Source: Anaerosomatales bacterium (GTDB lineage: Bacteria; Actinomycetota; Coriobacteriia; Anaerosomatales; SLCP01). Taken from it: 42,777 nt of DNA. The translations under genes and the position numbers were made by a program. Location: assembly GCA_029210645.1 (NCBI GenBank), contig JARGFT010000010.1, positions 40,429 through 83,205 on the forward strand, given 5' to 3'. A model generated the notes under the pieces. It had not been told where the DNA came from. It did not search any database and saw only the letters and a program-made list of their open reading frames with translations. This document shows positions 27,730-41,234 of this stretch, one piece after another (the stretch's first letter is position 1; each line of letters starts with the position of its first letter).

Positions 27730-27758
27730 TTGTCGGCGGCGGCTCCAGGTGGTAGTAT
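27730..27758 (+). promoter_or_regulatory. Predicted ccmE promoter
   Basis: TTGTCG and TAGTAT are 17 bases apart. Seven bases after the -10 box lies TGTTCAGGCA, an element also found at the same place after the hemA promoter. The leader before the ccmE start is about 120 bases and contains GGCGA/TCGCC and ACCGG/CCGGT pairs. Confidence 0.6.
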
Positions 27759-27765
27759 TAATGGC

Positions 27766-27775
27766 TGTTCAGGCA
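27766..27775 (+). promoter_or_regulatory. TGTTCAGGCA start-site element (ccmE copy)
   Basis: This 10-base string is identical to bases 35625-35634 in front of hemA and has the same distance from a -10 box (seven against six bases). It would be part of the first transcribed bases. No nearby reverse-complement partner exists here, unlike the hemA copy. Confidence 0.55.
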
Positions 27776-27888
27776 GGCAGACGTTTCGGAGCGGTGCTTC
27801 CCACGCCCAGGTACCGGTGCGAGTGTGCCCGGTGACCCTCGTGGCGAGCATCTCGGGCAACGTCGCCCCCAGCAAAGGAGTGGTGTTC

Positions 27889-28566
27889 GTGAACAAACGG
27901 GCGAGGATGCGCCTGATCGGCGTGACCGCCATCATCGCAATCTCCGTCGTCGCGATCGTCGTTGGTGTGGGCGCAGGAGATGGCTCGTACTCGCGCAACG
28001 TGAGTGACGTGGTCGTTGATCAGGAGCTCGTTGGCGAACGTGTACGCGTCACCGGCACCGTCATCCCCGGCTCCTGGGACAAGAAGTCGAGTCCCATGCG
28101 CTTCGACATCCGCGACGAAGGCGAGTCGTCCGGCCCGCAGATCTCCGTCGTCTACAACGGTGGCGTCCCGAGCACCTTCGGTGACGAGGTCACCGCGATC
28201 ATCACCGGCGTCATCAACACCGACGGGGTCCTCGAGTCGGAGGACATGATCACCAAGTGCCCGTCGAAGTATGAGTCTGCGACCGGAGCACTCACCATCG
28301 CCGACCTGCTCTCCGAGGGCGATGACGTCATCGGCAACTCAGTGCGCCTGACCGGCTTCGTGGTCGATGGGAGCATCCAGCCTCCGGGCGGCGAAACCCG
28401 CTTCACCATCGTCGACGAACGCGGTGACCCCTCCCTTGACGTCTTCTACGACGGCGCGCTGCCCGAGGGCATGGTCGACGGATCGCAGGTGGTCCTCGGC
28501 GGGCTCCTCGACGAGCAGGGAGTGTTCGACGCGGTCAGCGTTTCGATGTCGGATACCGAGCAGTAA
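27889..28566 (+). CDS. ccmE: CcmE haem chaperone, cysteine type, tandem OB domains
   Basis: This 225-residue membrane-anchored protein has its anchor at residues 8-27. The first OB-like domain (about 40-122, GERVRVTGTVIPGSW, RFDIRDEGE, ISVVYNGGVPSTFGDEVTAI) ends in KCPSKYES. This is the CxxxY haem-binding motif (C124, Y128) that replaces the usual HxxxY in some lineages. A second, similar OB-like domain (about 147-220, SVRLTGFVVDG, TRFTIVDER, LDVFYDGALPEGMVDGSQVVLGG) follows and lacks a haem motif. CcmE proteins normally have one such domain. The GTG start has AAAGGAG at the right distance. It is first in the ccm operon. Confidence 0.88.
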   Translation: MNKRARMRLIGVTAIIAISVVAIVVGVGAGDGSYSRNVSDVVVDQELVGERVRVTGTVIPGSWDKKSSPMRFDIRDEGESSGPQISVVYNGGVPSTFGDEVTAIITGVINTDGVLESEDMITKCPSKYESATGALTIADLLSEGDDVIGNSVRLTGFVVDGSIQPPGGETRFTIVDERGDPSLDVFYDGALPEGMVDGSQVVLGGLLDEQGVFDAVSVSMSDTEQ

Positions 28567-35588: not shown

Positions 35589-35618
35589 TTGATTCAAGGA
35601 CCTTAAGAATGCTAGAAT
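35589..35618 (+). promoter_or_regulatory. Predicted hemA promoter
   Basis: TTGATT and TAGAAT are 18 bases apart. The expected start point is at or just after 35625, where TGTTCAGGCAA begins. The promoter lies right after the SDR stop and gives the hemA operon its own 145-base leader. Confidence 0.65.
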
Positions 35619-35624
35619 ATCCGG

Positions 35625-35730
35625 TGTTCAGGCAACGTGCAGAAGGTGCGTGATCGAGCGTGTTCCAAGCGTCACATCGCCCTCGCCGGGCCTGCTTGCC
35701 TGAACAACATGCACCGCTCCGGCGAGGGCG
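35625..35730 (+). promoter_or_regulatory. Structured hemA leader with interleaved inverted repeats
   Basis: Two perfect inverted repeats interleave. TGTTCAGGCAA (35625-35635) pairs with TTGCCTGAACA (35696-35706). CGCCCTCGCCGG (35678-35689) pairs with CCGGCGAGGGCG (35719-35730). The order A, B, A', B' is that of an RNA pseudoknot or a pair of competing folds, 40 bases before the hemA ATG. The first ten bases of arm A also follow the ccmE promoter. No known riboswitch class is recognised. Paired protein-binding sites are the alternative. Confidence 0.6.
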
Positions 35731-35769
35731 TACCTATGCCCCCTATCTCGTGAGGCGATAACCCGCACG

Positions 35770-37158
35770 ATGCACCTGACCCTCGTGGGCCTCAGCCACA
35801 AGACCGCCCCGGTCGAGATACGTGAGAAGCTGACCTTCCCCGCCCACCGGCAGGAGGAGGCGCTCTCCCTTCTCCTCTCCACACCCGAGGTCGCCGAGGC
35901 GGTAGTACTCTCCACCTGCAACCGCACCGAGATCTACGCGGTGACCGCAGCGGGCACGGACGGCTCGGGCGCCGTCGTGGACTTTCTCGCCGACTACCAC
36001 GACCTCGACCGGCACGAACTCGTGCGCTACCTGTACTTCTCCGAAGGCGAGGCGGTCGTGCGCCACCTCTTCAGGGTGGTAGCGTCGCTGGACTCGATGG
36101 TCATCGGCGAGGCGCAGATCCTCGGACAGGTCAAAGAGGCGTACGAGCACGCGTTCGCCAACGACTCGGCCGGCCGGATCTTCAACAAGCTCTTCCGCCA
36201 GAGCTTCGAGGTGGGCAAGCGCGTGCGCAGCGAGACAGACATCGGCGAGAATGCCGTGTCCATCAGCTACGCGGCGGTCGAACTCGCCAAGAAGGTCTTC
36301 GACTCGCTCGACGGGCGTACGGTGCTCATCCTCGGCGCGGGCAAGATGAGCGAGCTCACCGCCAAGCATCTCGTCTCCAACGGTGTGAAGACGGTGCTGG
36401 TGGCCAACCGCACCTACGAGCGGGCACAGGAACTTGCCTGCCGCTTCTGCGGTCTTGCCATCCGCTACGACGAGCTCTTCGAGCGCATGCGCGAGGCCGA
36501 CATCGTCATCTCCTCCACGGCGGCCACCAGCTACGTCGTGACCAAGGACGACGTGGCCGCGGCGCGCAAGGGCCGCAGAGGCCAGCCGCTCTTCCTCATC
36601 GACATCGCCGTGCCGCGCGACATCGACCCGGACGTCAACCAGCTCGACGACGTCTTCCTCTACGACATCGACGATCTGAGCGGTGTGGTCGAGTCCAACC
36701 TCGAGGAGCGCATGCGCGAGGCGCGCCGTGCGGAGGAGATCATCGGCGAGGAGATGGCCGCGTTCGAACGGTGGATCGAGTCGATGGAGGTCGTGCCGAC
36801 GGTGGCGGCGATCCGCGCCAAGGCCGAGCAGGTCCGCTCGGCGGAACTCGAGAAGGCGCTCAAACGGCTCGGCGGGCTCTCCGAGAAGGAGCTCAAGACT
36901 GTCGACGCGCTCACGACCTCGATCGTGAACAAGATGCTGCACGGCCCCACCGCACGCTTGAAGATGGTGGCGGGGGAGAAGGACGGCTACACGTATGTCG
37001 AGGCCGCGCGCTTCCTTTACGGCCTGGACTCCAACCCTGAAGGTAAGGCAGCACATGCCGGTCTGATCAGGTCACTGTTCGGTCGCGCCGAGCGGGCCGC
37101 CGAGCGGGCAGCCGACAAGGGTACGCAGAGCGAGATGGGAGACACGATTGGCTGCTAG
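35770..37158 (+). CDS. hemA: Glutamyl-tRNA reductase
   Basis: HemA reduces glutamyl-tRNA to glutamate-1-semialdehyde, the committed step of C5 tetrapyrrole synthesis. Motifs are LVGLSHKTAPVEIREKL, VVLSTCNRTEIYAV with catalytic Cys50, DSMVIGEAQILGQVKEAYE, TVLILGAGKMSELTAKHL (NADPH site), ANRTYERAQELA and FLIDIAVPRDIDPDV. The C-terminal dimerisation helices are complete, giving 462 residues. The binding site before the ATG is weak (GAGG 14 bases away), which leaves room for leader control. The end overlaps hemC by 11 bases. Confidence 0.97.
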   Translation: MHLTLVGLSHKTAPVEIREKLTFPAHRQEEALSLLLSTPEVAEAVVLSTCNRTEIYAVTAAGTDGSGAVVDFLADYHDLDRHELVRYLYFSEGEAVVRHLFRVVASLDSMVIGEAQILGQVKEAYEHAFANDSAGRIFNKLFRQSFEVGKRVRSETDIGENAVSISYAAVELAKKVFDSLDGRTVLILGAGKMSELTAKHLVSNGVKTVLVANRTYERAQELACRFCGLAIRYDELFERMREADIVISSTAATSYVVTKDDVAAARKGRRGQPLFLIDIAVPRDIDPDVNQLDDVFLYDIDDLSGVVESNLEERMREARRAEEIIGEEMAAFERWIESMEVVPTVAAIRAKAEQVRSAELEKALKRLGGLSEKELKTVDALTTSIVNKMLHGPTARLKMVAGEKDGYTYVEAARFLYGLDSNPEGKAAHAGLIRSLFGRAERAAERAADKGTQSEMGDTIGC

Positions 37159-41158: not shown

Positions 41159-41234
41159 GGGGACGTGGCTCAGTTGGGAGAGCGCTGCCTTCGCACGGCA
41201 GAGGTCGGCGGTTCGAATCCGCTCGTCTCCACCA
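41159..41234 (+). tRNA. tRNA-Ala (anticodon CGC)
   Basis: The 76-base gene includes CCA. The acceptor stem is GGGGACG with CGTCTCC, and the D-arm region is GGCTCAGTTGGGAGAGC. The anticodon stem-loop is CTGCC, TTCGCAC, GGCAG, giving anticodon CGC, which reads GCG. The T arm has GGTTCGAATCC. All arms pair well. It lies between ahbC and a small gene in the hem cluster; HemA uses tRNA-Glu, so no functional link is implied. Confidence 0.93.

Follow-up and report, generated by a model that had tools for sequence, protein, structure and literature searches.

The leader of hemA contains an RNA element that is conserved and not a product of chance, and the loop of its hairpin is complementary to the predicted 5' ends of two mRNAs, that of hemA itself and that of the ccmE operon. 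We judge it likely, with a probability of roughly 0.75, that the element is a base-pairing regulatory RNA that couples haem synthesis with cytochrome c maturation, the ccm mRNA being its conserved client in trans. The haem and cytochrome c assembly genes appear to be coordinated by RNA–RNA pairing. At the level of sequence comparison, the helices, the tag, the position of the tag, the co-occurrence of the parts, their complementarity, and their covariation in cis and in trans are shown.

The window, i.e. the whole stretch of 42,777 nucleotides that was analysed, had been predicted to contain two perfect inverted repeats of 11 and 12 bp, interleaved in the order A-B-A'-B' between a promoter and hemA. 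A repeat search recovers both repeats exactly and in that order: repeat A pairs TGTTCAGGCAA (35625–35635) with TTGCCTGAACA (35696–35706), and repeat B pairs CGCCCTCGCCGG (35678–35689) with CCGGCGAGGGCG (35719–35730). Interleaved 11-mer pairs spanning at most 120 nt occur in none of 200 first-order Markov shuffles of the whole window. The flanking features are likewise in place, with a sigma-70-like promoter upstream and hemA downstream. Since the promoter ends at 35618, arm A is positioned at the predicted 5' end of the RNA. The parts are as follows.

35589–35618, forward strand: predicted sigma-70-like hemA promoter (TTGATT-18-TAGAAT, extended -10 TG).
35625–35635, forward strand: arm A, the 5'-terminal tag UGUUCAGGCAA; near-invariant in 58 relatives, covaries with A' in other classes.
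35639–35642, forward strand: D (GCAG); pairs with CTGC at 35692–35695 and lengthens helix A by 4 bp, with 89% of cells paired.
35645–35651, forward strand: C (GGUGCGU); pairs with C' (ATGCACC, 35709–35715), with 92.2% paired and three pairs changed on both sides.
35678–35689, forward strand: B, 5' arm of the core hairpin; 100% paired, 57 distinct sequences.
35692–35706, forward strand: antitag loop CUGCUUGCCUGAACA (D' and A'); among the most invariant columns of alignment A2 and kept where arm A is absent.
35709–35718, forward strand: C' (AUGCACCGCU), within the loop; partner of C in cis and of the ccmE leader in trans.
35719–35730, forward strand: B', 3' arm of the core hairpin; exact repeat with covariation, followed by a T-run in families f74, f87, and f93.
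35770–37158, forward strand: hemA, glutamyl-tRNA reductase (PF05201/PF01488/PF00745); behind the leader in all 58 order-level loci.

Helices C and D, the latter a short extension of A, were recognised by inspection of the alignment and add to the two repeats originally predicted. The strand order in cis is A-D-C-B-D'-A'-C'-B', in which A, C, and B cross pairwise, corresponding to a predicted ABCABC "pseudotrefoil". A, C, and B each covary; their coexistence in one fold is a predicted topology. The minimum free energy z-score of the single hemA-leader sequence is merely -1.6, so the structure would have escaped detection by folding energy alone. A short ORF (35736–35753, ATG CCC CCT ATC TCG TGA) lies directly after B', and its stop codon overlaps the GAGGCGA purine stretch before hemA. 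As an upstream ORF (M-P-P-I-S-stop) it was rejected and placed outside the core, because its start codon is not conserved (many GTG, TTG, AGC, or TTT).

A 149-nt query finds the element as a single copy in 58 of 61 relatives from 16 families, and all 58 copies are located directly 5' of hemA on the same strand; the genomes are mutually related drafts, so such counts are not independent, and the start sites given here are predictions. In the alignment of these leaders (A1), the loop and stems are nearly fixed and the variable part is the approximately 25 nt between C and B. The proportion of paired cells is 93.9% for helix A, 89% for D, 92.2% for C, and 100% for B (95.2% for A, D, C, and B jointly), eight pairs are changed on both sides, and none of 500 shuffles does as well, while slid controls on A1 reach 34–43%. 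Over both alignments, controls with slid partners are 30–49% paired versus 95–99% for the real helices. In a wider alignment of eight members of the order and 13 from other classes, helix A is 98.6% paired with three doubly changed pairs, and helix B is 99.6% paired with eight. Thus, the covariation by which the original prediction was to stand or fall is present in both stems, in B within the order and in A in the other classes, and the repeats do recur before orthologous hemA genes. Compensatory changes among homologues, the hallmark of a conserved structured RNA, are found in the stems.

Covariance models R1 and R2 extend the element to divergent members, some from further families of the class and some from other classes within the phylum. 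In families f46 and f98, arm A is GTTTAGGCAAGC or GTTTAGACAAGC with a matching A', and the element heads a ccm cluster (a cytochrome c assembly protein, ccmE, and a CcmF-like frame), with hemA about 6–8 kb downstream. The element is upstream of hemA in f96, with GTCCAGGC/GCCTGGAC, and in f87. Families f20, f74, and f93 have the hairpin without an adjacent arm A; in f74 it precedes a mogA-like gene (in G659, a mogA-like and a ccsA-like gene, then hemA). In f21, which comprises termite-gut MAGs, the hairpin, also without an adjacent arm A, is 3' of ccmC and a small ccmD-like frame, and no same-strand downstream gene is seen in the stretch examined; two loci (L089 and L090) have a terminator-like hairpin after the element. 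A search for hemA in the f21 genomes detected none. The location in cis before hemA or ccm genes holds in most lineages. Hairpin B has a GC-rich stem in all members. A clear T-run follows it in f74, f87, and f93 (T6–7 in f74 and f93); TTTT follows B in just 8 of 74 class-level sequences, and a U-tract is absent in the window, with no clear one in the order.

Some loci show peculiarities of their own. Three f21 loci (L089, L090, and L097) keep ccm genes and hairpin with no hemA found, which suggests a haem auxotroph that still regulates ccm. In two f20 loci, the frame of an upstream short-chain dehydrogenase stays open across the entire RNA element, reaching hemA in L092 and entering it in L094; the L094 B' strand GAGGGGG, 9 nt upstream of the hemA ATG, might serve as the hemA ribosome site. 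The copy in L122 (G650, f93) may be displaced, as the hairpin is followed by a frame that looks transposase-like by eye and is flanked on its other side by a mogA-like gene on the opposite strand. Model matches in G086 and G339 and a second one in G017 (L098, L136, and L137) have a coding context or no loop and were set aside as false positives. In unrelated phyla, exact matches to the loop reach no more than 25.7 bits with R2, compared with 49–92 for true members in the same search, and are attributed to chance. IMG/VR yields a single match. A conserved loop peptide (frame CLPEQ) was also rejected: the frame is open in f20 (L092–L095) and broken by indels elsewhere, and its wobble positions are invariant.

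Because the loop is conserved where arm A is missing, we searched the genomes for its complement. Several copies coincide with predicted start sites of other genes. One of them is in the window: the ccmE-operon mRNA is complementary, at its predicted 5' end (27766–27797), to the hairpin B loop (CUGCUUGCCUGAACA...GCACCGCU), and the relevant features there are the following.

27750–27758, forward strand: extended -10 of the ccmE operon (TGGTAGTAT), seen in the sequence and fitting the promoter-anchored pattern.
27766–27780, forward strand: trans tag UGUUCAGGCAGGCAG (TGTTCAGGCAGGCAG as DNA), where the ccmE mRNA is predicted to start, 8 nt after the extended -10; pairs with loop positions 35692–35706.
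27788–27797, forward strand: second trans segment GGAGCGGUGC (GGAGCGGTGC); pairs with GCACCGCUCC (GCACCGCTCC) at 35711–35720 through 10 contiguous pairs (G000).
27889–28566, forward strand: ccmE with two CcmE domains (PF03100, E 1.6e-32), the first gene of the tagged operon.

Downstream of ccmE are ccmF (PF16327/PF01578) and further cytochrome c assembly genes to about 34047. In a search based on the Pfam CcmE family, the ccmE leader begins with the tag in 28 of 28 genomes of the order and in seven genomes of f17, f20, and f21 (G061, three of f20, and three of f21); the f96 leader has the tag with a matching sequence change. By contrast with these, none of five class genomes without the hairpin (G063, G065, G066, G068, and G080) has a tag before ccmE. 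The promoter-anchored tag is found in 62 of 69 genomes of the order, usually in exactly two places, hemA and ccmE, and a reversed-pattern control gives 0. The gap of 5–8 nt between the -10 and the tag is conserved across the order. In f74 and f93, tags head the ccmE operon (L217 and L226) and thioredoxin-like (ResA-type) or CcdA-like genes (L220 and L221). No clear second tag was found in f46, none in the ccmE leader of G650 within the contig available, and, apart from G085, no C segment in the ccmE leaders of f20 and f21. An alignment of 28 ccmE leaders gives no consensus fold for the rest of the leader; conservation is confined to the tag and the C segment.

Two genomes that keep hemA, G022 (L106) and G065 (L110), lack both hairpin and tag, an apparent joint loss; the tag was sought with the promoter-anchored pattern in G022 and in the ccmE leader in G065. 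The tagged ccmE operon of G544 (f74, L217:385–1050) begins with an FtrD-like membrane Fe–S protein (PF10080). In G085, an exact tag TGTTCAGGCAAGC at L222:194 is about 40 nt upstream of the start codon of what looks by eye like a serine protease frame, and may be an extra target or a chance match.

The tag and the loop change together. In G677 (f96), the 5' ends of both hemA and ccmE are GUCCAGG and the loop is CCUGGAC, a T-A to C-G change in all three, and the C segment is altered together with its partner (GCAGTGC/GCACTGC). In f20, loop UACCUGAAC goes with tag GUUCAGGUA, and in its genomes G064 and G083 loop TACCTGAAC goes with ccmE tag GTTCAGGTA. Tag positions 1–9 pair with the loop in all 59 genomes having both parts, and positions 10–13 in 81–97% of them, often through G-U. 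The C segment is genome-specific, e.g. GATTGGTGCGT/ACGCACCAATC in G026, AATGTGC/GCACATT in G659, and GACGGTGC/GCACCGTC in G050, and its summed complementarity of 574 exceeds the maxima of 540 from 300 permutations of loops among genomes and 413 from shuffled leaders. The permutation test is weak for the A segment (20 of 2000 permutations are as good), because that sequence hardly varies; being mostly near-invariant, the A tag owes its covariation in trans to few lineages. Duplex energies of shuffled leaders were uninformative as a test, as GC-rich sequences pair well by chance, and permutations were used instead. The predicted binding to the loop is stronger for the ccmE tag than for the hemA cis arm in 34 of 35 genomes. 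Conserved complementarity to a target combined with covariation, the pattern expected of a trans-acting base-pairing RNA, is thus seen in these sequences.

We propose that the core of the element is hairpin B, whose conserved loop of about 29 nt would serve as an "antitag" (D'A' and C') for a 5'-terminal mRNA tag, GUUCAGGCA[A/G]GCAG ... (AGC)GGUGC. In cis, the tag at the 5' end of the hemA transcript would close the pseudoknot; in trans, the antitag would read the ccmE operon mRNA at its 5' end and, in some other lineages, thioredoxin-like (ResA-type) or CcdA-like mRNAs at theirs. Termination at B, for which T-runs are present in some lineages only, may free the leader as a short RNA, or the leader may act within longer RNAs. 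The hairpin RNA would then bind tagged extreme 5' ends and set mRNA stability or expression. With about 25–120 nt between the tag and the start codon of ccmE, pairing cannot generally work by covering the ribosome site directly, and an effect on ccmE mRNA stability in the manner of FasX and ska is plausible by analogy. Alternatively, a tag bound to the loop might hinder hairpin B and let read-through into hemA proceed. Judging by f21, which has hairpin and tag with no hemA found, the conserved client would be the ccm mRNA, and in most lineages the two pathways would be coupled through the placement of the element inside the hemA leader. On balance we favour the view that Actinomycetota possess an RNA regulon of a new class, in which the antitag of the hemA-leader hairpin recognises a 5'-terminal tag common to mRNAs for haem and cytochrome c biogenesis, through direct mRNA–mRNA (or leader sRNA–mRNA) pairing in a bipartite complex of the same polarity, which in cis would be the three-helix pseudotrefoil.

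This reading does not require a haem riboswitch, though it is compatible with one. A cis-only attenuator or metabolite riboswitch, in which A/C pairing with the terminator-like B loop would switch hemA according to haem or another tetrapyrrole with no role in trans, is unlikely. It would account for a pseudoknot with covariation that in the order invariably precedes haem or ccm genes and that is followed by a T-run in f74, f87, and f93, but not for a ccmE leader that bears the same tag with genome-matched changes, nor for a loop that is conserved in f20, f21, and f74 without arm A and an element that is kept in f21, where hemA is not found. A self-contained riboswitch is therefore a poorer description than an RNA–RNA pairing module, whose loop matches ccmE mRNA 5' ends and persists in the absence of a detected hemA. 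Of the original prediction, the conserved structured hemA-leader RNA, its pseudoknot topology, and the covariation of its stems stand; fold switching in cis upon sensing haem, sirohaem, or cobalamin finds no support, and arm A is missing in several lineages with the hairpin.

Pairing between the 5' and 3' parts of a long ccm(-hem) transcript would join the tag that begins the ccmE mRNA to a hairpin located 3'-terminally or ahead of hemA, and would give control in cis of read-through or stability over about 5–8 kb. In the window, the order, f20, and f21, the ccm operon is followed on its own strand by the hairpin; in most genomes of the order about 8 kb separates the two, and some of the pairing might therefore take place within one molecule. 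As a general account we find it doubtful, since hemA of the order has its own tagged promoter and, in f74, the hairpin is surrounded by other genes and is on different contigs from the tags of the ccmE operon and the thioredoxin-like or CcdA-like genes. Much the least probable is that the tag acts as DNA, being an operator (GTTCAGGC, located at the start site) for a transcription factor common to hemA and ccmE, with the loop copy as a third operator. The fixed distance from tag to -10 at both promoters would suit it, but compensatory changes maintain the stem whose loop is the third copy, many tag–loop pairs are G-U (tag positions 8, 10, 12, and 13), the separately placed second segment (C) is also complementary and genome-specific, and f20, f21, and f74 have the loop copy without a neighbouring tag.

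T-box leaders are leader RNAs that recognise another RNA, a tRNA, by base-pairing. The hemA leader would likewise recognise another RNA by pairing, but its partner would be an mRNA 5' end and not a tRNA, and Rfam scans give no T-box match. Indeed, Rfam 15, at gathering and relaxed thresholds, has no family matching the window leader or the divergent loci (the window yields just a tRNA at 41159–41231), in line with the original impression that no riboswitch class could be recognised. Terminated SAM riboswitches of Listeria monocytogenes, SreA and SreB, act in trans on the prfA 5' UTR (PMC8079631). Like SreA, the hemA element is the leader RNA of a metabolic operon and, as proposed here from sequence, also pairs with the 5' UTR of another mRNA; unlike SreA with its SAM aptamer, it has no aptamer or ligand identified, and its target would be a 5'-terminal tag also present on its own transcript. 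FasX binds the 5' end of ska mRNA and stabilises it (PMC4691137). The predicted hemA-leader pairing similarly involves the outermost 5' bases of the target, which in most genomes are well away from the ribosome site, but FasX has its own locus and an unrelated sequence, and its effect is measured whereas that of the hemA leader is predicted. ABCABC "pseudotrefoil" pseudoknots have been counted in 51 sequences, compared with 1688 with ABAB topology (PMC3390330). The hemA leader would resemble them in having three mutually crossing helices if A, C, and B all form in cis; it differs in that each helix covaries and that the pairing is predicted to occur intermolecularly as well. In the literature searched, a shared 5'-terminal tag read both in cis and in trans is not described.

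How haem production is coordinated with haem-consuming cytochrome assembly is an old question, mostly studied through proteins or iron-responsive sRNAs. The hemA-leader element has an unusual RNA topology and is a new family for RNA databases. Anaerosomatales include iron reducers with multihaem cytochromes (PMC9686372). The proposed circuit would be a compact one across several classes of Actinomycetota, including such lineages, and it makes a clear prediction for a swap of loop and tag bases. If the reading is true, haem supply and haem use would be coordinated by RNA pairing.
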